A stretch of 35,003 nt of DNA from NCBI GenBank assembly GCA_007127745.1, contig SKYV01000125.1:1-35003 (forward strand), read 5' to 3'. Within the stretch, counting starts at the first letter, position 1, and every line of letters begins with the position of its first letter. Both the position numbers and the translations under genes were made by a program. This DNA comes from Balneolaceae bacterium. GTDB taxonomy: Bacteria > Bacteroidota > Rhodothermia > Balneolales > Balneolaceae. Positions 3,207 through 29,283 of the stretch are shown in pieces. The notes under the pieces are model-generated. The model was not told where the DNA came from, did no database searches, and was given only the letters and a program-made list of their open reading frames with translations.

Positions 3207-3281
3207 GTGATTAGAAATTACTTCCATACCTCCCTTCATCACCGGCTCCATCATGGCAGCCATTGGCATCGTGTGCATTAA
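3207..3281 (+). CDS. histidine-rich leader peptide of the his operon
   Basis: In the frame ending at the TAA at 3279-3281, the last 18 codons before the stop contain eight His codons (3225, 3237, 3240, 3249, 3252, 3261, 3267, 3276), including two His-His pairs. No ATG lies in frame. The likely start is the GTG at 3207 (24 residues) or the TTG at 3201. The stop is 65 bases before hisG. Such His density immediately upstream of hisG is what a ribosome-sensed leader peptide needs: the ribosome stalls when charged His-tRNA is scarce. The principle is established for the enterobacterial his leader; its use here is inferred. The complementary strand reads as a Met-rich frame only because CAT reads as ATG in reverse. 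Confidence 0.8.
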   Translation: MIRNYFHTSLHHRLHHGSHWHRVH

Positions 3282-17367: not shown

Positions 17368-19047
17368 TCAGCCGTCATCCGTCACACACCCCTCACTCGC
17401 CGTGGATACACTCTTTGCATATTTATAAAGAATTCCACTCTTGTATTTCAGTTCGGGGGCTTGCCAGTTTTTGCGCCGCTGTTCCAACTCCTCATCGGAA
17501 AGATCCACGTTTAAAATTCGCTTGTCTGCATTAATGGTGATGGTGTCACCGTCTTTCAGCAAGACGATGGTTCCTCCAAGCTGGGCTTCTGGCGTTACAT
17601 GGCCAATTACAAATCCGTGGGTTCCACCTGAAAAACGGCCGTCTGTGATCAATGCCACTTCTTTGCCGAGGCCGGCTCCCATTATTGCAGCGGTAATTGA
17701 GAGCATCTCCCGCATACCGGGACCACCTTTCGGGCCCTCGTAACGGATCACAACCACATCCCCTTTTTTCACTTTCCCGGCTTGAATGCCCTGCAGGCAA
17801 TCTTCTTCCGATTCAAAGACTTTCGCTGTTCCGGTGAATCGGGTACCCTCTTTTCCGGTAATTTTTGCCACACTGCCTTCGGGCGACAAATTGCCATACA
17901 ATATCTGAAGATGGCCTGTTTTTTTGATTGGATCGGAAACCGAGCGAATAATATTTTGCTCTTCAAGCAGGCCGGGCACTTCATCCACATTTTCAGCAAG
18001 GGTTTTTCCGGTTACGGTGATGCAATCTCCGTGAAGAAATCCTTCCTCCAGCAACATTTTCTGAACTGCAGGTACGCCTCCAACATTATAAAGGTCTTCC
18101 ATCACATATTTGCCGCTCGGTTTCAGATCGGCGAGAAAGGGAGTTCGGTCACTCACTGCCTGGAAATCATCAATCGTAAAATCTACGTCGGCCGCTTTTG
18201 CGATGGCCAGCATATGCATTACGGCATTGGTTGAACCGCCAAGGGCTATAATCATGGAAACGGCATTTTCGAGAGATTTTTTTGTGATAATATCACGCGG
18301 CTTGATGTCTTTTTCCAGAATATTTAAAATGGCACTGCCTGCCTTCTCACACTCTTTTTTCTTTTGCTGATGGGTGGCAGGTATGGAAGAACTGAAAGGC
18401 AAACTCATTCCGAGAGTTTCAATGGCCGAAGCCATCGTGTTGGCCGTATACATTCCACCGCAGGCACCTGCACCGGGACAGGCGTGTTTCAAAACGTTGT
18501 TCATCTCCTCTTCGTCAATCTCTTTTGAGAGATATTTCCCGTACGATTCGAATGCTGAGACAATATCCAGCTTTTCACCATTGAGATTGCCGGGACGAAT
18601 GGTGCCGCCATAAACCATAATGGATGGCCGGTTGAGGCGCGCCATAGCCATTACGGAACCGGGCATATTTTTATCGCAACCCACAACAGAAATGTTGGCA
18701 TCGTACCACTGCGCCTGCATGACAATTTCAATAGAGTCGGCGATGATATCTCTGGACGGAAGTGAGAACTTCATTCCCTGTGTTCCCATTGAAATTCCGT
18801 CGCTCACCCCAATGGAGTGAAACACAAAACCCACCATGTTTTTACCCCACACCGATTGCTTGATCAGGCCGGCTAAATCATTCAAATGCATGTTGCAGGG
18901 ATTGCCGTCCCAGCCGGTACTTGCAATGCCAACCTGGGGTTTGTTCAAGTCTTCCTCGCTCAAACCGGCAGCAAAAAGCATAGCCTTGGAACCAACTTGT
19001 GACTGTTCCTGTGTTAATCTGGAGCTATATTTATTTAATTTATTCAT
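17368..19047 (-). CDS. ilvD: dihydroxy-acid dehydratase (IlvD)
   Basis: IlvD removes water from dihydroxy acids to give the 2-oxo acid precursors of valine and isoleucine. The 559-residue protein has three cysteines placed as iron-sulfur ligands: Cys51 in G-N-P-C-N, Cys124 in G-C-D-K-N-M-P-G and Cys196 in G-A-C-G-G-M-Y-T. Lys126 belongs to the same motif. Later motifs include G-G-S-T-N-A-V-M-H and [10 protein letters not shown]. It is transcribed away from ilvB and shares a 523-base intergenic region with it, so it does not pass through the ilv leader peptide region as part of the same RNA. Confidence 0.97.
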
Positions 19048-19175
19048 TCTTTAATATAATTCTTTAATACTCTGTTATTTATAGACTTAAATAATATATT
19101 ATATTTTTATGGAAGCGCTTTTAAAAAATATATTTTAAGTTTCACTTCTGGCTCAAAAACTATATAAAATAATTC

Positions 19176-19206
19176 TTGACTCAAACACACACGCTGTATA
19201 TGTTTT
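19176..19206 (+). promoter_or_regulatory. probable ilvB-operon promoter
   Basis: TTG at 19176-19178 is followed after 20 bases by TATGTTTT at 19199-19206, fitting the Bacteroidota TTG-N19/20-TAnnTTTG pattern with one change. The same bases also give TTGACT-N17-TATGTT, a fair sigma70 promoter. Transcription from about 19213 would give a leader RNA of about 355 bases before ilvB, which fits the leader-peptide arrangement. Confidence 0.5.
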
Positions 19207-19321
19207 TGCAGGTGATAATCACATAACAGATTACAAATTGTCTGAAGCAATAACACATAAACTTTTTCACACTTTTAACTACGCATCTGCCGGGCGCAGA
19301 AATGCTCTTGCTTTAAGTGCT

Positions 19322-19477
19322 ATGAGTTTGCTTACCGTGTTAACTGCGATCACTCTTTCCATCACATCTGTTATCTCTATTATTATTCCCTCTATCGATA
19401 TTATTAGCATTATTATTGGGCTAATTCTATCCATACTAATTTCTGGCATTCTAATTCTAAACCTAATTATTAGATAA
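19322..19477 (+). CDS. branched-chain amino-acid-rich leader peptide of the ilv-leu operon
   Basis: From the ATG at 19322 to the TAA at 19475 there are 51 codons, of which 19 are Ile, 10 Leu and 2 Val (61%). Ile runs of three occur at residues 20-22 and 30-32, with I-I at 27-28 and 49-50. The frame is open upstream to a TTG at 19238, but that part is not enriched, so I take the ATG. The stop lies 93 bases before ilvB, first gene of the Ile/Val/Leu operon. This is the expected signature of a leader peptide whose translation senses charged Ile-, Leu- and Val-tRNA. A small membrane protein is the alternative, because the peptide would be very hydrophobic. Confidence 0.82.
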   Translation: MSLLTVLTAITLSITSVISIIIPSIDIISIIIGLILSILISGILILNLIIR

Positions 19478-19549
19478 TCCCACCAGCCAGAGGTTAGAAT
19501 TCGAAATCCCATAAATAGTTTTTCATTTCTTTTTTGACCTCTGGCGGGT
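19453..19549 (+). promoter_or_regulatory. candidate ilv attenuator: two mutually exclusive hairpins
   Basis: Pairing A joins AATTCTAAACCT (19453-19464, last codons of the leader frame) with AGGTTAGAATT (19491-19501), 11 pairs with one bulged A. Pairing B joins 19482-19495 with 19536-19549: its core is CCAGAGGT with ACCTCTGG, extended outward with one A/G mismatch to about 13 pairs. A and B share 19491-19495, so both cannot form. A ribosome finishing the leader would cover the 5' arm of A and favour B; a stalled one would favour A. The T-rich stretch (19518-19535) is inside the loop of B rather than after it, so B is not a textbook terminator. Confidence 0.55.
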
Positions 19550-19570
19550 AACCTATATCCGTGAGTCAAT

Positions 19571-21364
19571 ATGAAATATCAAAAATCAACATCCACATCC
19601 ACAGCAAAAAAAATTGAATCCGAAATGTCCCTGAAGCCTGTTAAAAAGGCGGTCAGCCCTGAAACTCAAACATTTAACGGTGCAGAAATTCTCATAAAAA
19701 CCCTCGCTGACCTCGATGTTGACACCATCTTCGGCTATCCGGGTGGTGCGGTTCTCCCTGTATATGACACTCTTTTTGACAACCACGACCTGAATCACGT
19801 TTTGATACGCCACGAACAGGCCGGAACTCATGCCGCCGACGGATATGCACGCGCTACAGGTAAACCGGGAGTGGTGCTGGTTACATCAGGCCCGGGCGGC
19901 ACAAACACTGTAACGGGAATTGCCACGGCAATGATGGATTCCATTCCTCTGGTAGTTCTTACCGGACAGGTACCGACCAGTGTGATCGGGAATGATGCCT
20001 TCCAGGAGGCCGATATTGTGGGAATTACCCGGCCTATCACCAAGCAAAACTATCTTGTCAGAGATGTAAGCGAACTTGAAGATGTTCTCCGCGAAGCGTT
20101 CCACATTGCCACAAACGGCAGGCCAGGACCGGTTTTGGTAGATCTGCCCAAAGATATGCTGAATACTGTCGGCAATTACAAGTGTAACAAAAAAGTGGAT
20201 ATCCCAAGTTTTAAACCCACGCTTCACGGTCATCAGCCACAAATTGCGAAAGCAGCAAAAATGTTGAGCGAGGCTAAAAAACCGTTGATTTATGTAGGTG
20301 GCGGTGCAATTTCCGGAGAAGCCTGGAAAGAAGTTACCGAGTTTGCCGAACGATTAAACGTTCCCGTAACCACAACCTTGATGGGGCTCGGCGTATTTCC
20401 CGAAAGCAAACCGCAATCGCTGGGGATGCTGGGAATGCACGGCACCTGGTACGCCAATATGGCGATGACCGAGTGCGACGTTCTTCTGGCTGTAGGCGCC
20501 CGCTTTGATGATCGCGTAACCGGCCGACTCAATGGGTTTTCACAAAAATCCAGAAAAATTCACATCGATATTGATCCATCCTGTATCGGAAAAAATGTGG
20601 ATGTGGAAGTTCCCATCGTGGGAGATGTTAAGCGGGTGATCCCGGCGATCGATAAGCTTGCAACCCCGCCCGAAACGTCAGAGTGGTGGAACATCATCAA
20701 AACCTGGAAAAAGGAACATCCGCTGGAGGTTCCACAAGCTGATGACAAAATCTATCCGCAGCAGATGGTCAAGATGATTTCGGAAGTAACCGAAGGTAAT
20801 GCCATTGTGGTTACCGATGTGGGTCAGCACCAGATGTGGGCGGCACAGCACTACAAATTCAACCATCCACGATCATGGATCTCATCAGGCGGACTCGGGA
20901 CCATGGGATACGGCTTCCCCGCAGCCTTGGGTGCGGCACTTGCCTGCCCGGACCGGGACGTGGTTTGCATTACAGGCGATGGTGGTTTTCAGATGTCATC
21001 TTACGAACTTGCCACGGCCGTGGAATACAAAATTCCCGTAAAAATTGCTCTTATGAATAACAATTGCCTCGGTATGGTTCGCCAGTGGCAGCAGCTTTTC
21101 TATAAAAACCGCACCAGCTATTCAGTTTTCGGTTCCAACAATCCCGATTTCGTTAAAATGGCTGAAAGTTATGGAGCTGTTGGAATGCGGGCTACCAATC
21201 CAAAAGAAATGAGAGATGTTTTAGACAAGGCAATGAAAATTGATGACGGCCCCGTTTTGATGGATTTTAGCGTGGTGGAAACTGAAAACTGTTACCCGAT
21301 GGTGCCATCCGGTGCGGCACTTAATGAGATGGTGGAATCTGATGAAGAAGCAAACAAAGGTTAA
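19571..21364 (+). CDS. ilvB: acetolactate synthase, large (catalytic) subunit
   Basis: The enzyme joins two pyruvates to acetolactate (valine, leucine), or pyruvate and 2-oxobutyrate to acetohydroxybutyrate (isoleucine), with ThDP, Mg and FAD. The 597-residue protein shows G-Y-P-G-G-A-V-L-P-V-Y at 55-65, catalytic Glu82 in R-H-E-Q-A-G-T-H, T-S-G-P-G-G-T-N, and the ThDP motif G-D-G-G-F-Q-M-S followed by N-N-N-C-L-G-M-V-R-Q-W. The first 33 residues are Ser/Thr/Lys-rich and unlike the family, so an internal ATG at 19625 could be the true start. It is the first structural gene after the leader, and ilvN follows after three bases. Confidence 0.97.
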   Translation: MKYQKSTSTSTAKKIESEMSLKPVKKAVSPETQTFNGAEILIKTLADLDVDTIFGYPGGAVLPVYDTLFDNHDLNHVLIRHEQAGTHAADGYARATGKPGVVLVTSGPGGTNTVTGIATAMMDSIPLVVLTGQVPTSVIGNDAFQEADIVGITRPITKQNYLVRDVSELEDVLREAFHIATNGRPGPVLVDLPKDMLNTVGNYKCNKKVDIPSFKPTLHGHQPQIAKAAKMLSEAKKPLIYVGGGAISGEAWKEVTEFAERLNVPVTTTLMGLGVFPESKPQSLGMLGMHGTWYANMAMTECDVLLAVGARFDDRVTGRLNGFSQKSRKIHIDIDPSCIGKNVDVEVPIVGDVKRVIPAIDKLATPPETSEWWNIIKTWKKEHPLEVPQADDKIYPQQMVKMISEVTEGNAIVVTDVGQHQMWAAQHYKFNHPRSWISSGGLGTMGYGFPAALGAALACPDRDVVCITGDGGFQMSSYELATAVEYKIPVKIALMNNNCLGMVRQWQQLFYKNRTSYSVFGSNNPDFVKMAESYGAVGMRATNPKEMRDVLDKAMKIDDGPVLMDFSVVETENCYPMVPSGAALNEMVESDEEANKG

Positions 21365-21367
21365 AAC

Positions 21368-21892
21368 ATGAGCACAACTACAATCAAAAAAACACCCAAA
21401 CACACGCTCTCGGTTGTTGTTAAACACAACCTGAACACACTTTCCCGAATCATCGGAATTTTTAGCGCTAAAGGTTTTGAGCTCGACAGTGTTACCTTTG
21501 CATCCGAGGCTGAACCCGGTATGGCCCGGTTGACCATAACCACACGAGGTGATGAAAAAACCGTGGAACAGATCAACAAGCACCTCTACAATGTGGTGGA
21601 TGTGCTCAAAGTCATCAACCTCACCCATAAAAAATGCATAGAACGCGAGCTGGCAATCGTGAAAGTTTCAACCGCAAAAGTGGGGCGACCTGAAATTATG
21701 CTGATTGCTCAGGCTTTCAAGGCGAAAGTGATTGACATTACAAGCGACAAGCTCGCCCTGGAAGTTACCGGAAACACCGACAAAGTGGATGCTATGATTG
21801 AGGTACTGCGGCCCTACGGAATTGTTGCTATGTCGCGAACCGGAAGTATTGCACTGAAACGCGAATTTCAGGGAGCTGTGAATATTAACTGA
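21368..21892 (+). CDS. ilvN: acetolactate synthase, small (regulatory) subunit
   Basis: The 174-residue protein begins with an ACT domain: H-T-L-S-V-V-V-K-H-N-L-N-T-L-S-R-I-I-G near residues 12-30, then G-F-E-L-D-S-V-T-F. A second regulatory half follows, with R-E-L-A-I-V-K-V near 95 and A-L-E-V-T-G-N-T-D-K-V-D near 136. It normally confers valine feedback inhibition and raises catalytic activity of the large subunit. It starts three bases after the ilvB stop, so translation is coupled. The symbol follows the ilvBN convention; ilvH would be equally acceptable. Confidence 0.95.
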   Translation: MSTTTIKKTPKHTLSVVVKHNLNTLSRIIGIFSAKGFELDSVTFASEAEPGMARLTITTRGDEKTVEQINKHLYNVVDVLKVINLTHKKCIERELAIVKVSTAKVGRPEIMLIAQAFKAKVIDITSDKLALEVTGNTDKVDAMIEVLRPYGIVAMSRTGSIALKREFQGAVNIN

Positions 21893-21972
21893 CAAGTCAT
21901 TTCCCTGCTTAAAAATCGGGAAAGATTTAAACAATAAATTTAAAACGTAAATAACACAACTAAACAAACTCA

Positions 21973-22974
21973 ATGAAAGCGAAAACGTATTATAACGGAG
22001 ATGCAAATCTCGATGTACTATCCAATAAAACAGTAGCAATTATCGGTTATGGCAGCCAGGGACATGCCCATGCCAGAAACCTGCAGGAAAGCGGCGTTAA
22101 TGTCGTTGTGGGCCTTCGAAAAGGGAGTTCGTCCTGGAAAGAAGCCGAAGAAGCAGGGCTCGAAGTTCTGGAATCAGCAGATGCCGCTGCCAAAGGAGAT
22201 CTGGTGATGATCCTCATCCCCGATCAGTACCAGGGGCCGTTTTATAAAGAAAAGATTGAACCGAACCTTGAACCCGGCAATGCTTTGCTGTTTGCTCATG
22301 GTTTTAACATCCATTTCGGTGAAATTGCACCTCCGGAAAACGTAGATGTTTTTATGGTTGCCCCGAAAGGCCCCGGCCATCTCGTACGCCGGGTATATAC
22401 GGAAGGCTCCGGTGTACCCTGCCTGTTTGCCATCTATCAGGATGCAACAGGAACCGCCAAAGAAACAGCACTTGCCTACGCCAAAGGCCTGGGCGGAACC
22501 CGTGCCGGCGTACTGGAAACCACCTTTAAAGAAGAAACTGAGACCGACCTGTTCGGCGAGCAAGCTGTACTCTGCGGGGGTGCCTCCGAATTGGTGAAAA
22601 TCGGGTTTGAAGTGTTGATTGAAGCTGGTTATCAGCCGGAAATTGCCTATTTCGAATGTCTGCATGAACTGAAACTGATCGTTGATTTGATGTACGAAGG
22701 CGGCATTGAAAGAATGTATTACTCGGTGAGCGATACGGCTGAATATGGCGGCCTCACCCGGGGAACACGCGTGATTGACTCAGACACAAAAAAGCGAATG
22801 AAAAACATCCTCGAAGAAGTTCAGAGCGGTGCTTTTGCCAAAGAGTGGATGGACGAAAACCGAAAGGATTTGCCAAATCTCACAAAAATGAGAAATGCTC
22901 TTGGTGACCATAAAATTGAAACCGTCGGCAAAGAACTCCGATCTATGATGGACTGGATTGACGAAGAAAAATAG
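21973..22974 (+). CDS. ilvC: ketol-acid reductoisomerase, class I
   Basis: IlvC isomerises and reduces acetohydroxy acids to dihydroxy acids. The 333-residue length is that of the short class I form. The Rossmann motif is [10 protein letters not shown] near residues 27-36. The cofactor loop G-L-R-K-G-S-S-S-W has the Arg and Ser residues associated with NADPH preference. The knotted C-terminal domain has the metal-binding D-L-F-G-E-Q near residue 196 and E-C-L-H-E-L-K. It lies 80 bases after ilvN with no terminator between them. Confidence 0.97.
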
Positions 22975-23022
22975 AGGTTCCCGACAAGGAAAAATTTTCA
23001 GAAAACCATTATTTCAGAAAAC

Positions 23023-24654
23023 ATGCCAAAACCTATTCAAATATTCGATACTACCCTGAGGGATGGAACCCAGGGCGAAAAAGTCTCTTTTTCAGCCGGG
23101 GATAAATTCCGTATTGCCAAACGCCTTGATGAGTTTGGGATCGATTACATTGAGGGCGGATGGCCGGGATCGAACCCCAAAGACATGGCATTTTTTGAAA
23201 AGGCGAAATCCCATCACTTTCAGCATGCAAAAATTGTTGCTTTTGGCAGTACCTGCCGGGCAGGCAACCGACCGGATGAAGACCCCAATCTCCAGGCTCT
23301 GATTCAGGCAGAAACACCCGCCCTTTCATTGTTTGGGAAATCGTGGTTGCTGCATGTTACTGATGCTCTGAAAATTTCTCCTGAAAAAAACCTTGAAATT
23401 ATTGCCGGTTCTATCAAATACCTGAAAGAGCATGGCAAAGAGATTATTTATGATGCCGAACACTTTTTTGACGGGTACAAAGACAATCCCGAATATGCCA
23501 TAAAAACTCTGCTTGCCGCACAAAATGCCGGTGCGAATGTACTTGTTTTGTGTGATACAAACGGCGGAACGCTCACGCATGAAATTTCAGCCATTGTAAA
23601 TGAAATAAAACAGGAAGTTGAAGCTCCGGTGGGCATACACTCTCACAATGATTCGGAACTGGCCGTTGCCAACGCACTTGCCGCGGTCGAGGCCGGTGCT
23701 GTGCATGTGCAGGGAACCATCAACGGGTACGGGGAACGCTGTGGAAACGCCAACCTCTGTTCCGTTATTCCCAACCTTCAGTTAAAAATGGGTTATTCCT
23801 GCATTCCCGTGAAGAAGTTGGACGGCCTCTCCACCCTTTCAAAATTTGTAAGCGAGCTGGGTAACCTCACACCCGATAACAAACAGCCCTATGTCGGCAA
23901 AAGTGCATTTGCCCATAAAGGCGGCATCCACGTAAGTGCCGTCATTAAAAATGAGCAGACGTATGAACACATCAAACCCGAACAGGTGGGGAACAGCCGG
24001 AGGGTGCTGGTATCTGATCTCTCGGGAAAAAGTAATGTCACTTACAAATCAGAGGAACTGGGTTTTGAATTTGATAAAAGCTCGAAACAAAGCTCAGAAA
24101 TTGTGCAGGAACTGAAGAAACTGGAAAATGAAGGGTATCAGTTTGAAGCGGCAGAAGCATCCTTTGAACTGCTTGTAAAACAACTCACCAACAATGCACC
24201 GGATTTCTTCAAACTGGAGGGATTCCGTGTGATAATGGAGCGAAACGGCAGTGGAGAATCGAGGTCGGAAGCCACCATTAAAGTGAGGGTGAATGATCAG
24301 ATAGAACTAAGTGCCGCCGAAGGAAACGGGCCGGTTCATGCACTTGATGCCGCACTGCGCCGGGCACTTTGCGAATTCTACCCCGAAATTTCATCCATGC
24401 AGCTTCAGGATTATAAAGTGCGTGTGCTGAACGAAAAAGACGGAACCGGTGCAAAAGTCCGCGTTTTGATCGACTCAGCAAAAGACGGCACAAGCTGGGG
24501 CACCGTTGGGGTTTCAGAGAATATTATCGACGCAAGCTGGAAAGCCCTCTCAGAAGGCATCATCTATTTTTTAATGAACCAAAACAGTAAACCCAAAAAG
24601 AAAACAGAATTGGCCGAAACGGATCAAAACATACGATCAAACGCCCCATCTTGA
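23023..24654 (+). CDS. cimA: citramalate synthase (CimA)
   Basis: CimA condenses pyruvate and acetyl-CoA to (R)-citramalate, opening the threonine-independent route to isoleucine. The 543-residue protein starts [13 protein letters not shown], and the G-T-Q-G-E version, followed by G-G-W-P-G-S-N-P, is typical of CimA, where LeuA has G-E-Q-S-P-G. H-S-H-N-D-S-E carries metal ligands. A LeuA-type dimer/regulatory domain occupies about 390-515 (G-S-G-E-S-R-S-E-A-T, then V-L-N-E-K-D-G-T-G). Isoleucine inhibition through that domain is expected from the family. It lies 48 bases after ilvC. Confidence 0.93.
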   Translation: MPKPIQIFDTTLRDGTQGEKVSFSAGDKFRIAKRLDEFGIDYIEGGWPGSNPKDMAFFEKAKSHHFQHAKIVAFGSTCRAGNRPDEDPNLQALIQAETPALSLFGKSWLLHVTDALKISPEKNLEIIAGSIKYLKEHGKEIIYDAEHFFDGYKDNPEYAIKTLLAAQNAGANVLVLCDTNGGTLTHEISAIVNEIKQEVEAPVGIHSHNDSELAVANALAAVEAGAVHVQGTINGYGERCGNANLCSVIPNLQLKMGYSCIPVKKLDGLSTLSKFVSELGNLTPDNKQPYVGKSAFAHKGGIHVSAVIKNEQTYEHIKPEQVGNSRRVLVSDLSGKSNVTYKSEELGFEFDKSSKQSSEIVQELKKLENEGYQFEAAEASFELLVKQLTNNAPDFFKLEGFRVIMERNGSGESRSEATIKVRVNDQIELSAAEGNGPVHALDAALRRALCEFYPEISSMQLQDYKVRVLNEKDGTGAKVRVLIDSAKDGTSWGTVGVSENIIDASWKALSEGIIYFLMNQNSKPKKKTELAETDQNIRSNAPS

Positions 24655-24677
24655 GAGGGTACCAGCTTGGCGCTTAA

Positions 24678-24790
24678 AAAGTGACCTTGAAGAGTCTGAA
24701 GCATAGCGGAAGTCCTTCAAGCGTCACTTTGCAGCCATGAAAAGAACGCTTCAAGGAGCTTTCGCACGCTTGAAGGTTCTTTTTCGCTAA
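24678..24790 (+). promoter_or_regulatory. tandem hairpins between cimA and leuA, possible internal attenuator or terminator
   Basis: Hairpin 1 pairs 24678-24692 (AAAGTGACCTTGAAG) with 24715-24730, 15 pairs and one bulged base. Hairpin 2 pairs 24743-24755 with 24769-24780, 12 pairs and one bulge, and runs into T5, like a terminator. Alternative pairings exist: 24714-24724 with 24766-24776 (11 perfect pairs), and 24685-24692 with 24749-24756 (8 pairs). A 17-codon frame (24737-24790) runs through hairpin 2 but has only three Leu codons, so a leucine leader is doubtful. It may tune leuACDB against ilvBNC-cimA, or be an inserted palindromic repeat. Confidence 0.55.
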
Positions 24791-24837
24791 ACACCTACTG
24801 AGGGAACTTAACACCAAACAACAAAACAGACAGAATC

Positions 24838-26031
24838 ATGAACAATCACATTACCATTTTTGATACCACACTTCGAGACGGTGAGCAATCGCCGGGTTAT
24901 AGCATGAACAAGCAGGAAAAGCTTCGTTTGGCTCTACAGCTCGAAAAACTGGGTGTTGATGTGATTGAAGCCGGTTTCCCGATCGCATCAGACGGTGACT
25001 ACGATACCGTTAAAGAAATTGGAAAAACCATTAAAAAAAGTTCGGTGGCCGCACTCTGCCGAACCCGGATGGAAGATCTTGAACGGGCTGTTTCTGCAGT
25101 ACAGCATGCTGCAAAACCCAGAATCCACACCTTCATTGCTACGAGTGATATTCATCTTCAATACAAACTTCAGCAAACACGTGAACAGGTTCTGGAATCT
25201 GCTGTAAAAGCAGTGGAGTTTGCAAAATCTCATTACGATGATGTGGAGTTTTCTGCCGAGGATGCCTCGCGCAGCGACCCACAGTTTTTGATCGACATTT
25301 TTACAGCGGTGATTGATGCAGGCGCTACCACGATCAACGTTCCCGACACGGTGGGTTATGCCCTTCCCTGGGAATATGCTGAACTGATCAAAACCCTGAA
25401 TGATAATGTTCCAAATATCGACAAAGCCATTATCAGCGTGCACTGCCACAATGATTTGGGGCTTGCCGTAGCTAACTCACTCATGGCTGTCCGGAACGGC
25501 GCCCGCCAGATTGAATGTACGGTAAACGGTATCGGCGAGAGGGCAGGAAATGCTTCACTCGAAGAGGTGGCCATGGCCATCGAAACCCGAAAAAACAATA
25601 TGGGATACACCACCTCCATCAACACAAAGGAGATTTTCCCCTCCAGCCAGATGCTGGCTCAGATTACCGGAAAAGGTGTGCAGCCCAACAAAGCCGTAGT
25701 GGGTGAAAATGCATTTGCTCACGAAGCTGGAATTCATCAGCATGGTGTGCTGAAAAATCCGCTTACCTACGAAATTATGACTCCCGAGTCCGTAGGCCTC
25801 ACATGCAATAAAATTGTGATCGGAAAGCATTCCGGGCGGTTTGCTCTCTGCAAAAAACTGGAGGATTTGGGCTATCATCTGAACAAAGAAGACCTGAACC
25901 GAGTGTACACGGAAGTGACCAAACTGGCTGATGAGAAAAAGGTGGTGGAAGACTGCGACCTGATTAACATCCTGGCCGCTGCCGATTTTTCTGCTCAAAA
26001 TCAGAATCAATCGTATGCTGCAGGCGGATAA
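24838..26031 (+). CDS. leuA: 2-isopropylmalate synthase (LeuA), short form
   Basis: LeuA condenses 2-oxoisovalerate with acetyl-CoA, the first leucine-specific step. The protein begins [15 protein letters not shown] and has S-V-H-C-H-N-D-L-G near residue 200 with the metal-binding histidines, then N-G-I-G-E-R-A-G-N and E-A-G-I-H-Q-H-G-V. It is only 397 residues against about 510 for full-length LeuA, ending soon after the linker, so the C-terminal leucine-binding domain is absent. No remnant of that domain follows the stop, so this is a naturally short form rather than a frameshift. Confidence 0.93.
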
Positions 26032-26110
26032 TAAAACCAACTATTTAATACTCTCGAAAGAGCATTTAATCAAACCTTAAATTAAATACAATCAAATAAT
26101 TACTCCTACT

Positions 26111-27424
26111 ATGGGAATGACGTTAACTGAAAAAATACTTGCAAAACACAGTGGCAGAGACCGGGTTTCTCCGGGCGACAATGTGTGGGTAGATGTAGAT
26201 GTACTGATGACCCACGACGTCTGCGGGCCACCGGCTATTGGAATTTTTCACAAACAATTTGGCGACGATGCTAAAGTTTGGGACAAGGAAAAGCTGGTGA
26301 TAATCCCTGACCACTACATTTTCACCAATGATAAATATGCCAACCGGAATGTAGATGTGCTGCGTGCTTTTGCCGCTGAACAGGATCTGCCCTATTTCTA
26401 CGATGTAGGAACCGACAGCTACAAAGGCGTTTGCCATGTGGCCCTGCCGGAAGAAGGGTTTACCCGGCCCGGCGAGGTGCTTTTCGGTACAGATTCTCAT
26501 ACCTGCACGGCCGGAGCCTTTGGGCAATTTGCCACTGGCATTGGCAATACCGATGCTGCCTTCATTATGGGAACCGGCAAACTCTGGGTGAAAGTACCCG
26601 AAACCATGCGCTTTGTATTTGAAGGGGCTTCGTTGCCGCCCTACCTGATGGCCAAAGATATTATCCTGCAAATAATCGGGGATATTGGCGTTGACGGAGC
26701 CACATACAGAACGATGGAATTTACAGGCCCGGGCATTAAAGCCCTGACGATGGAAGATCGAATGACCCTCACCAACATGGCCATTGAAGCCGGAGGGAAA
26801 AACGGAGTAGTTGAACCGGATGAAGTAACCGAAGCGTATGTAAAGTCCCGGACCAACAAGCCATTTGAAAACGTGTACAGCGATCCGGATGCTGAATATC
26901 ACAGCGAACACTTTTATAATCTCGAAGAGATGGTACCAATGGTGGCCAAACCTCACAGTCCAGATAATAAGGCCACGGCTGAAGAGCTGGAAGGTGAATA
27001 TCTGAATCGGGCGTACATCGGATCGTGCACCGGCGGAAAACTGTCGGACTTCCGGGCCGCAGCAGAAATCATCCGAGGCCACAAAGTAAAACTCGATACC
27101 TACATCGTACCGGCAACAACCGAAATTGCAAGAGCACTCGAAACCGAGACTCTTTACGGAACGTCGCTGATTGACATTTTCCGTGAAGCTGGCTGTAAAA
27201 TTGGAAATGCCTCCTGTGCGGCATGTCTTGGCGGGCCGGCTGATACATTCGGCAGACTAAACAACGAAGAGGTTTGCATCTCTTCCACCAACAGAAATTA
27301 TCCCGGCCGTATGGGCTCGAAGCAATCTTCGGTTTACCTGGCTTCGCCATATACGGTAGCTGCATCCGCCGTAACCGGTGTGATTACTGATCCGCGTGTA
27401 TTCATTCAGCAAACTGTTATTTGA
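26111..27424 (+). CDS. leuC: 3-isopropylmalate dehydratase, large subunit (LeuC)
   Basis: LeuC with LeuD moves the hydroxyl of 2-isopropylmalate, and likely of citramalate, via dehydration and rehydration. The 437-residue protein has the aconitase-family landmarks D-H-Y-I-F-T near 67, G-T-D-S-H-T-C-T near 126-133, and 4Fe-4S ligands Cys306 (G-S-C-T-G-G-K), Cys369 and Cys372 (C-A-A-C-L-G-G). The C-terminus has N-R-N-Y-P-G-R-M-G. The length suits the shorter LeuC/homoaconitase type rather than the 465-residue E. coli type. The gap to leuA is 79 bases. Confidence 0.95.
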   Translation: MGMTLTEKILAKHSGRDRVSPGDNVWVDVDVLMTHDVCGPPAIGIFHKQFGDDAKVWDKEKLVIIPDHYIFTNDKYANRNVDVLRAFAAEQDLPYFYDVGTDSYKGVCHVALPEEGFTRPGEVLFGTDSHTCTAGAFGQFATGIGNTDAAFIMGTGKLWVKVPETMRFVFEGASLPPYLMAKDIILQIIGDIGVDGATYRTMEFTGPGIKALTMEDRMTLTNMAIEAGGKNGVVEPDEVTEAYVKSRTNKPFENVYSDPDAEYHSEHFYNLEEMVPMVAKPHSPDNKATAEELEGEYLNRAYIGSCTGGKLSDFRAAAEIIRGHKVKLDTYIVPATTEIARALETETLYGTSLIDIFREAGCKIGNASCAACLGGPADTFGRLNNEEVCISSTNRNYPGRMGSKQSSVYLASPYTVAASAVTGVITDPRVFIQQTVI

Positions 27425-27470
27425 TATGGTACAGGGTGCAGGCAAAAAGTTGCGGGACAGATAATAATTA

Positions 27471-27523
27471 ACCCCTCTCGAGAGGGGACAGATCAAAACG
27501 CGATTAGCGTTTTGATCAGGGGT
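27471..27523. repeat. nested palindromic repeat between leuC and leuD
   Basis: CCCCTCTCGAGAGGGG (27472-27487) is a perfect palindrome. GATCAAAACGC (27491-27501) pairs perfectly with GCGTTTTGATC (27507-27517). ACCCCT at 27471 also pairs with AGGGGT ending at 27523, enclosing the whole unit. It lies inside the operon in a 186-base gap and looks like an interspersed REP-like unit. It might stabilise or process the RNA between leuC and leuD. Confidence 0.7.
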
Positions 27524-27610
27524 GTGTCCGAGCGAACCTTACATCAATATTTTCAAAATTCTAAATGACAGAAACCAATCAAATTCTAAAGCAAACTTCA
27601 TAAAAAATAA

Positions 27611-28180
27611 ATGAGTAAAAAAACCGAACCCATCAAAGGCAAGGCTTTTGTATTGGGCAAAAATGTAGATACAGACCAAATCATACCGGCGGCACATCTG
27701 GTGTACAGCCTCGATGATCCCGAAGAACGAAAACTCTACGGAAAGTATGCCCTCTCGGGGGTTCCGTCTGAAAAATCCGGACTACCCCAGGGAAATATTC
27801 CGCTCACCCAAGATGACCAAACAGAAAGTGAGTTCAGCATTATTGTGGCAAGTGACAATTTTGGCTGTGGGTCTTCCCGCGAGCACGCCCCTGCCTGCCT
27901 CGAAATTGCCGGAATTAAAGCGATCGTCACACCTTCATACGCACGTATTTTCTACAGAAATTCTGTTGACGGCGGATTTCTGATCCCATTCGAAAGCTTC
28001 GATGATCTCAGCAAAGAGGTTCACACCGGTGATGAACTGGAAATTGACCAGGAAAATCATGTACTGAAAAACCTCACACAGAACAAAGAGTATAACATCA
28101 AACCGCTGGGCAGTGTGGCCGATATCGTTCATGCAGGTGGTATTTTTGAATATGCCCGAAAACACGGAATGGTTGCCTGA
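27611..28180 (+). CDS. leuD: 3-isopropylmalate dehydratase, small subunit (LeuD)
   Basis: LeuD is the swivelling domain partner of LeuC. The 189-residue protein has K-N-V-D-T-D-Q-I-I-P-A near 17-27 and the substrate-binding signature N-F-G-C-G-S-S-R-E-H-A near 83-93, followed by A-R-I-F-Y-R-N. The N-terminal eight residues are Lys-rich and variable. It shares one base with leuB, the A of its TGA stop being the A of the leuB ATG, so the two are translationally coupled. Confidence 0.96.
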   Translation: MSKKTEPIKGKAFVLGKNVDTDQIIPAAHLVYSLDDPEERKLYGKYALSGVPSEKSGLPQGNIPLTQDDQTESEFSIIVASDNFGCGSSREHAPACLEIAGIKAIVTPSYARIFYRNSVDGGFLIPFESFDDLSKEVHTGDELEIDQENHVLKNLTQNKEYNIKPLGSVADIVHAGGIFEYARKHGMVA

Positions 28181-29283
28181 TGATGAAGAAAACAGAAATT
28201 ATTGCCTTGCCCGGAGACGGAATCGGACCTGAAGTTACCGGTGTTGCCGTTGAAGTTCTCAAAATAGTGTGCCGCCAGCACAATGTGGAGCTTTCGGTGA
28301 AAGAGTTTCCTTTTGGCGGCACCTGTTACGAGCAGTACGGGAGTCCGGTTACTGATGAAATTCTAGATGAATGCAAAAAAGCGAAAGTTGTGCTTCTGGG
28401 TGCTGTCGGCGGCCCAAAATGGGACGACCTCAACGCCGACAAGCGCCCGGAAGCTGCATTATTAAAACTCAGAAAAGAGCTGGGTGTATATGCCAACCTC
28501 AGACCTATCAAAGTCTACCCGGTTTTAGCCGGCTCATCAACACTAAAAAAAGAAGTGATTGAGGGAACCGACATCCTGATAATACGCGAGCTTACCGGGG
28601 GCATTTACTTTGGCAAGCCCCGTTTCACCTCCGAAGAAGGGGGCGATCCTTTTTCGGTTGACACCATGAAATACAGCCGGTCGGAAGTTCAGCGTGTTGC
28701 AAAAGTTGCTTTCGAAGCAGCCCGCCTTCGCAGCGGAAAACTCTGTTCAGTGGATAAAGCCAATGTTTTGGAAAGCTCAAGAATGTGGAGAAAATCAGTG
28801 GACGAACTTACTGATGATTACTCTGATGTAAAACTCAGTAACATGCTGGTTGATAATTGTGCCATGCAGATTATTCGCGATCCAAAACAATTTGATGTAA
28901 TGGTTACCGGCAACATGTTCGGCGATATTTTAAGTGATGCTGCTTCTATGCTTACCGGTTCACTCGGAATGTTACCTTCAGCAAGTATTGGCGGTAAAAA
29001 CGGCCTTTATGAACCGGTTCACGGCTCCGCACCCGACATAGCCGGACAGGGAGTGGCTAATCCCCTGGCCGCTGTAGCATCTGCTGCACTGTTATGCCGA
29101 TATTCCCTGAAAATGGAAGAAGCCGCACAAACAATTGAAGAGGCCATTAAATCCCTTCTTCAGGATGGATTACGTACGGGTGATCTGTATGCCGAAGAGC
29201 CCGGAACGCGGCTTGTTCATACAAAAGAAGTTTCCGACTACCTGATCAATCAGATTCAGGCCAAAGAAGAATCGGCAGTGTAA
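28180..29283 (+). CDS. leuB: 3-isopropylmalate dehydrogenase (LeuB)
   Basis: LeuB oxidatively decarboxylates 3-isopropylmalate, and plausibly also 3-methylmalate from the citramalate route, with NAD. The 367-residue protein starts L-P-G-D-G-I-G-P-E-V and has R-E-L-T-G-G-I-Y-F-G near 138, K-A-N-V-L near 190, V-D-N-C-A-M-Q, T-G-N-M-F-G-D-I-L-S-D-A-A-S near 240 and H-G-S-A-P-D-I-A-G near 276. ATGs at 28180 and 28183 are both possible; the first overlaps the leuD stop. It is the last gene of the operon, followed by a good terminator. Confidence 0.97.
   Translation: MMKKTEIIALPGDGIGPEVTGVAVEVLKIVCRQHNVELSVKEFPFGGTCYEQYGSPVTDEILDECKKAKVVLLGAVGGPKWDDLNADKRPEAALLKLRKELGVYANLRPIKVYPVLAGSSTLKKEVIEGTDILIIRELTGGIYFGKPRFTSEEGGDPFSVDTMKYSRSEVQRVAKVAFEAARLRSGKLCSVDKANVLESSRMWRKSVDELTDDYSDVKLSNMLVDNCAMQIIRDPKQFDVMVTGNMFGDILSDAASMLTGSLGMLPSASIGGKNGLYEPVHGSAPDIAGQGVANPLAAVASAALLCRYSLKMEEAAQTIEEAIKSLLQDGLRTGDLYAEEPGTRLVHTKEVSDYLINQIQAKEESAV

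Follow-up and report, generated by a model that had tools for sequence, protein, structure and literature searches.

The ilv-leu operon of this Balneolaceae bacterium appears to be preceded by a ribosome-mediated attenuator, in which a shortage of isoleucine or leucine would be sensed through translation of a long leader frame and passed along a relay of four RNA strands (A, B, C and D) to the start of ilvB, which would then be opened; we give this reading a probability of roughly 0.6. That leader-peptide attenuation of some kind controls the operon is close to certain, and its output probably lies at translation initiation. The window, by which we mean the whole stretch of 35,003 nucleotides that was analysed, belongs to an assembly of 3.07 Mb, where it is contig 62 of 287, and the features on which the argument turns are as follows.

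17368-19047, reverse strand: divergent ilvD, dihydroxy-acid dehydratase (TIGR00110, above cut-off).
19110-19123, no strand assigned: conserved block TGGAAGCGCTTTTA with palindrome AAGCGCTT, a possible operator between the divergent ilvD and ilvB (GGAAGCGCTTTT in 21/21 aligned loci).
19176-19208, forward strand: probable promoter of the leader transcript, TTGACT ... TATATGTTTTTG (consensus match, conserved block in the alignment).
19238-19477, forward strand: probable full leader frame, TTG start, 79 codons (TTG aligned in 21/21 loci, read in 33/33).
19322-19477, forward strand: 51-codon part of the leader with 31 Ile/Leu/Val codons, its ATG unconserved (translation, codon counts, alignment).
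19436-19448, forward strand: strand A, CTAATTTCTGGCA, within the leader, predicted to pair with B (alignment, pairing tests).
19486-19499, forward strand: strand B, GCCAGAGGTTAGAA, 8 nt past the leader stop, predicted to pair with A or C (alignment, pairing tests).
19532-19548, forward strand: strand C, TTTTGACCTCTGGCGGG, predicted to pair with B or D (alignment, pairing tests).
19559-19565, forward strand: strand D, CCGTGAG, 5 nt before the ilvB ATG, able to pair with the 3' part of C (weaker support than B:C).
19571-21364, forward strand: ilvB, acetolactate synthase large subunit, first gene of the operon (TIGR00118, above cut-off).
21368-29283, forward strand: rest of the ilv-leu operon, probable ilvN, ilvC, cimA, leuA, leuC, leuD and leuB (cimA by TIGR00977, the others from their translations).

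Within the operon cimA (citramalate synthase) occupies 23023-24654; ilvN, ilvC, leuA, leuC, leuD and leuB are what we take the remaining genes to be from their translations. The block at 19110-19123 presumably resembles an operator of the LacI-family or cre type.

Translation and codon counts bear out the frame that an earlier note on this DNA had described, which runs on the forward strand from an ATG at 19322 to the TAA ending at 19477, encodes MSLLTVLTAITLSITSVISIIIPSIDIISIIIGLILSILISGILILNLIIR followed by the stop (51 codons), holds 31 Ile, Leu or Val codons (19 I, 10 L and 2 V) and ends 93 nt before the ilvB ATG at 19571. In the 21 window genes these three amino acids make up 23.2% of codons, so that 31 of 51 has a binomial P of about 1e-8, uncorrected for many tests. 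Among 16,343 overlapping open stretches of 51 codons in the six frames of the window this one ranks first in Ile/Leu/Val content, and the best distinct runner-up, with 23, is antisense to it. None of 5000 dinucleotide shuffles of 19080-19570 reached 31 in a forward frame (maximum 28). The 51-codon stretch stands as part of the leader; the start that the earlier note had given it probably does not. Its closest relative (L002) has ATT where the window has ATG 19322, and this ATG was rejected as the conserved start. A TTG at 19238, which yields a leader of 79 codons with 36 Ile/Leu/Val, is aligned in 21/21 upstream regions and stands at the matching place in 33/33 loci of the window's family with a complete N-terminus (L001-L022 and L111-L123, frames read by eye; the 34th family locus, L013, is cut by a contig end and left out of this count). 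Judged by these alignments, the conserved leader probably starts at TTG 19238 and hence has 79 codons rather than 51. A weak start codon so strictly kept may limit how often the leader is translated. Classical leaders of this type have about 30 codons, and the present one is longer than these, as the earlier note had remarked.

The N-terminal half of the leader is variable among relatives, with free variation all the way up to the conserved end; within the genus, the final 16 residues show good conservation. What is kept between genera of the order is the type of codon. In the last 20 leader codons of the 18 Balneolales genus representatives, Leu is CTA in 75 of 96 cases and Ile is ATT in 109 of 134, compared with a CTA share of 26/799 Leu codons (3.3%) in 21 window genes, a background taken from the window genes only and set against a leader in which one conserved CTA sits in strand A, where pairing also constrains it. 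Codon type remains steady in Balneolales as the residue order of the conserved end changes between genera, and on the evidence of these alignments it is the use of CTA and ATT, more than the sequence of residues, that the leader preserves within the order. The expectation of the earlier note, that codon type rather than residues would be conserved upstream of ilvB in related genomes, is borne out in the order. The good conservation of the C-terminus within the genus bears on the condition that the note had set for its own refutation, and is accounted for in part by strand A and the CTA and ATT codons. The sister lineages do not favour CTA, which accounts for 6 of 37 Leu codons in their six representatives.

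The genus alignment contains three near-invariant blocks, TCTGGC (A, in the leader), GCCAGAGGT (B, after the stop) and ACCTCTGGC (C, before ilvB), and the letters of the proposed helices change jointly between lineages. For B:C such changes are seen in L112 (GCCGGAG/CTCCGGC), L026 (TCAGAGGTC/GACCTCTGA), L133 (GTCATTCC/GGAGTGAC) and the sister lineages (GGTCAATCCC/GGGATTGACC), and for A:B in L133 (TCAGGAAT/ATTCCTGA) and L028 (CTCTGGA/TCCAGAG). Pairing tests took one locus per genus from 24 genera, 18 of Balneolales and six of sister lineages. B:C was supported in 24/24 genera, shuffled sequences doing as well as the native helix in 13 of 7200 trials (no genus exceeding 5 of 300) and a C swapped in from another family matching the own B:C value in 36 of 470 cases. 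Over a core of 12 pairs, 232 of 288 cells pair and 27 two-sided changes occur, either figure being reached by 0 of 2000 reassignments of C among genera; the register was set by the same folding program, which favours pairing, the use of one locus per genus removes shared ancestry in part, and L168, whose register looks wrong, is kept in the counts. A:B fell at or below the 5% level of shuffles in 16 of the 18 Balneolales genera and gave no signal in the sister lineages (0/6 representatives); over all 24 genera the own helix was reached in 1252 of 7200 shuffles and 58 of 470 swaps. The C:D hairpin on its own lies modestly above shuffles, with 7 of 24 genera at or below 5% and a mean z of -1.1. 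A:B and B:C share strand B, and these predicted pairings, which overlap the leader, are hence mutually exclusive. No Rfam model (of 4227) matched the window at gathering score, and none matched 13 related loci up to E 1.

In the mechanism that we propose, a ribosome would translate the leader from its TTG, ending with 20 codons among which Leu CTA and Ile ATT predominate, and scarcity of charged tRNA-Leu or tRNA-Ile would cause it to stall over strand A. With A occupied, B would be free to pair with C as C is transcribed, and B:C would keep C off D, leaving the ilvB start region open and the operon expressed. When amino acids are plentiful the ribosome would reach the stop next to B and leave, A:B would form, and C, now free, would fold with D onto the start region, so that ilvB would be poorly translated. 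The opposite polarity is unlikely, because a biosynthetic operon would then go off in starvation. Stalling on Ile or Leu codons far upstream of A would leave A free and the switch off, which counts against the mechanism, as it does not account for the long hydrophobic tract. Support from sequence comparison extends to the leader frame, its codon bias, B:C, A:B in Balneolales and the failure to find an intrinsic terminator; the stalling, the direction of the switch and an action on translation rather than on Rho-dependent termination are what we infer.

The nature of the output is the point on which the principal rival turns. The same leader and A/B/C switch could govern premature termination, whether Rho-dependent or at a terminator with a weak U-run that the scan missed, a possibility that we hold to be somewhat unlikely. 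The nearest published leaders upstream of ilvB are described as transcription attenuators (PMC10272879, PMC1262725), and relatives in which ilvD heads the operon carry perfect intrinsic terminators. Against this, a scan for a hairpin followed by a T-run scored 0/62 ilvB-led loci, searched from leader stop to ilvB, and 11/11 Balneolales ilvD-led loci, searched over a stretch reaching 300 nt upstream and 120 nt downstream of the assumed ilvD start; the scan is strict, missing a hairpin with TATTTTT after the his leader of the same window. It likewise returned none in four sister ilvD-led loci. Runs of at least five T within 130 nt of the leader stop, which would suit a weak terminator, occur in 14/62 ilvB-led loci, the window included. 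From 18600 to 20200 there is one terminator-like site, with 1.4 expected, and it lies inside the leader frame at 19292-19307. No intrinsic terminator having been found after the ilvB leader, the classical mechanism cannot simply be assumed. Also weighing against termination is an ATG within 30 nt after C in 19/24 genus representatives, counted in any frame and with a chance level estimated at about 4 in 10. The predicted openness of the ilvB start region rises when B is available, by +0.05 to +0.46 in 21/21 genus loci, the start codon being taken as the first ATG after C, which is not always that of ilvB (as in L014). Over all 62 loci the gain is positive in 56, some of these below 0.05 and several near zero, Rhodothermus-like loci among them, and negative in six (L090, L113, L115, L124, L133 and L170); with B shuffled, the native gain was reached in 15 of 630 trials in the genus. 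Plain sequestration of a Shine-Dalgarno sequence was rejected as the form that translational control might take. Neither GGAG, GAGG, AGGA nor AAGG occurs within 20 nt of the ilvB start, and only 1 of 24 window genes has a Shine-Dalgarno-like motif; with such motifs so seldom present in the window genes, simple masking of one is ruled out. A pattern search for the 16S tail in the organism's own assembly found no match. In several lineages a second short frame follows C (12 were translated). With the ilvB starts as assigned, this frame runs into the start in L173 and stops short of it by 1 nt in L178 and by 13 nt in L131. Such frames would fit an effect on translation passed on by coupling, and Rho-dependent termination or a weak terminator would be compatible with them as well.

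The three remaining readings concern the conserved peptide or the DNA itself. Control by an arrest peptide, in which the residues of the C-terminus ISGILILNLII would themselves cause stalling and Ile or Leu would serve as the small-molecule signal, is improbable: the conservation of the last 16 residues in the genus would suit it, as would the retention of Ser-Gly in several families despite codon changes, but the residue order shifts between and within genera (ILILNL, IILLNL, ILNLIL, IINLIL), Ser-Gly is lost in L112 and L113 and belongs in any case to strand A, and a CTA bias is unexpected for a signal based on residues. A functional membrane microprotein, which the earlier note had named as the main alternative and which was rejected as the main reading, would suit the hydrophobic stretch of about 45 residues; we consider it highly improbable, since the N-terminal half is variable, the peptide has no Pfam or NCBIfam match up to E 1, all loci examined have the frame adjoining the operon, those in which ilvD comes first have another Ile/Val-rich leader, and both the RNA pairing and the codon bias overlap the frame. 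Just as little credence attaches to a DNA operator of which B and C would be the halves, instead of strands of RNA, also rejected as the main reading: the AGAGGT/ACCTCT core is nearly constant through much of Balneolales, as an operator might be, whereas the distance from B to C varies from 34 to 52 nt within one genus and the changes across genera are two-sided.

The proposal of a leader peptide ahead of the ilv-leu operon gains support from relatives in which a homologous frame is found. An orthologous ilvB (at least 62% identity) is present in 59/128 genomes of the order Balneolales; 56 loci were examined, the hits in G124, G126 and G050 lying outside these, and the leader precedes ilvB in 53/53 of those whose contig reaches far enough. 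In the other three (L021, L127 and L132) the contig breaks off between 0 and 130 nt ahead of the match. The order also contains a second ilvB group, at 43-47% identity and in 27 genomes, for which 0/22 loci read (L137-L158) have a leader directly upstream by the criterion of the script. In 11/11 extended loci of this group ilvD lies upstream of ilvB and heads the operon, and an Ile/Val-rich frame that differs in sequence from the ilvB leader is among the two best frames before ilvD in 10 of these 11 (not L218). Sister lineages of the class, which seem to include loci (L170, L171) resembling the Rhodothermus record L090, have the leader before ilvB in 9/21 loci (20 plus L090), an apparent end of ilvD before ilvB in 8/21 and nothing clear in 4/21. 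When five sister ilvD-first loci were extended, four showed ilvD with an Ile/Leu/Val-rich frame before it, and ilvD was unrecognised in the fifth (L229). A leader thus belongs to whichever gene heads the operon rather than to ilvB or ilvD in particular.

Searching 124 genomes of the order with a covariance model (R1) built for the element gave 34 strong hits (E at most 3.1e-10), one each in 34 genomes, of which 31 are sequences that built the model and match by construction, and three (G025, G067 and G072) are independent. All strong hits lie upstream of ilvB except that in G025, which is on a different contig from its ilvB, a gene that begins at a contig end. Weaker than these 34 were hits to the antisense strand of the element and matches with E between 0.026 and 1. 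R1 performs well on the window's family and detects other families weakly or not at all, and the distribution therefore rests on the ilvB loci; a second, cross-family alignment (A2) was too gappy for a covariance model. Thirty-two of 80 named loci of other phyla were scanned for Ile/Leu/Val-rich frames at a loose limit, and five passed, of which L031 (Balneolales) and L090 (Rhodothermus) carry this element; the others were L061, L044 and L048. L061, from Ignavibacteriae, has a branched-chain-rich frame before ilvB with a possible GGTTTC/GAAACC pairing and a T8 run.

Extended to the class as a whole, the reading becomes tentative, at a little under even odds: leader peptides would read amino-acid starvation by controlling translation initiation rather than termination, the A/B/C/D relay opening the ilvB start, in several lineages by way of a second short frame that overlaps or closely precedes that start (translational coupling). 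Second frames between C and ilvB were seen in L029, L030, L126, L129, L131, L023, L173, L174 and L178, several with Cys-rich parts (ACVCFSYGYSI, RCVCLTCTVC, CLVCSGIPLWCSC). In loci of genus g15, which belongs to family f3, CATCTGA in the stop region and CAGATG at the start of ilvB are complementary.

The closest functional parallels are the ilvL, ivbL and leuL leaders of enterobacteria, in which a short Ile/Leu/Val-rich frame with the rare Leu codon CTA and mutually exclusive pairings stands ahead of the operon. The window leader shares the rich frame, the rare CTA and the exclusive pairings, and differs in that no intrinsic terminator was found, in its 79 codons and TTG start, and in having no Rfam match. 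In translational attenuators of the erm and cat type, stalling on a leader shifts the pairing and frees the start of the next frame; the signal for the window element would be amino-acid shortage rather than an antibiotic. The ilvD-led leaders of the same order (L217-L226 and L232) resemble it as Ile/Val-rich leaders heading an operon of the same pathway, and differ from it in their perfect intrinsic terminator and leader sequence. L226 is an example of this terminator type, with MRTIIISLVIIQIIGIPYRPGEAL and a stop, then AAAAGCCTTCCC...GGGAAGGCTTTT.

Among published elements, the ilvB-II motif of Corynebacterium is a branched-chain-enriched uORF upstream of ilvB described as transcription attenuation, and the ilvB-OMG and Leptospira ilvB motifs also have branched-chain uORFs (PMC10272879); compared by description only, ilvB-II is alike in its uORF before ilvB and differs in belonging to Actinobacteria and in being described as a transcription attenuator. 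The LEU element upstream of leuA in Actinobacteria has a Leu codon run that pairs with a Shine-Dalgarno box at the base of a pseudoknot (PMC1262725). It shares with the window element a Leu-codon leader peptide and a pairing that involves the start region of the next gene; there the Leu codons themselves pair, whereas here an A/B/C/D relay is proposed and there is no clear Shine-Dalgarno motif. Two further papers refer in a general way to attenuation by leader peptides in Flavobacterium and Bacteroides (PMC9723704, PMC7366714), and a third treats uORF motifs and the ilvB motif in Leptospira, the words 'Rhodothermus' and 'Bacteroidetes' being absent from its main text (PMC8632094). A literature search that covered few subscription papers turned up no account of a leader of this kind from Balneola or Rhodothermus, nor of any ilv leader from Bacteroidetes. 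Since uORFs linked to ilvB have been published in other phyla (PMC10272879, PMC1262725), the kind of element is already known. What sets this one apart is the missing recognisable terminator, the strand relay kept across the class and the existence, within one order, of a counterpart of the terminator type.

Attenuation by leader peptides is most familiar as a device built on terminators. The order studied here appears to run two designs for one pathway: operons headed by ilvD have the textbook terminator, and those headed by ilvB have a pairing relay in which no terminator can be recognised. Transcriptional attenuation and what may be translational attenuation can be compared here as nature provides them, in a lineage with few Shine-Dalgarno motifs, as counted in 24 genes. 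In such a lineage the start of translation probably depends on how open the RNA is. The element, which matches nothing in Rfam, may further be taken as a candidate RNA family.

A second leader occurs in the window ahead of the his genes. At 3207-3281 on the forward strand a GTG-started frame encodes VIRNYFHTSLHHRLHHGSHWHRVH followed by a stop, with 8 His in 24 codons, and ends 65 nt before hisG. The terminator scan finds none after it, yet a folded hairpin is followed there by TATTTTT. Among 24 loci of the genus, 23 have a His-rich frame ahead of hisG, the 24th (L202) having no anchor, and such a frame is present in four of six loci of other families (not L205 or L206). Within the ilv-leu operon, inverted repeats were seen by eye in two of the gaps between genes, at 24655-24837 and 27425-27610.
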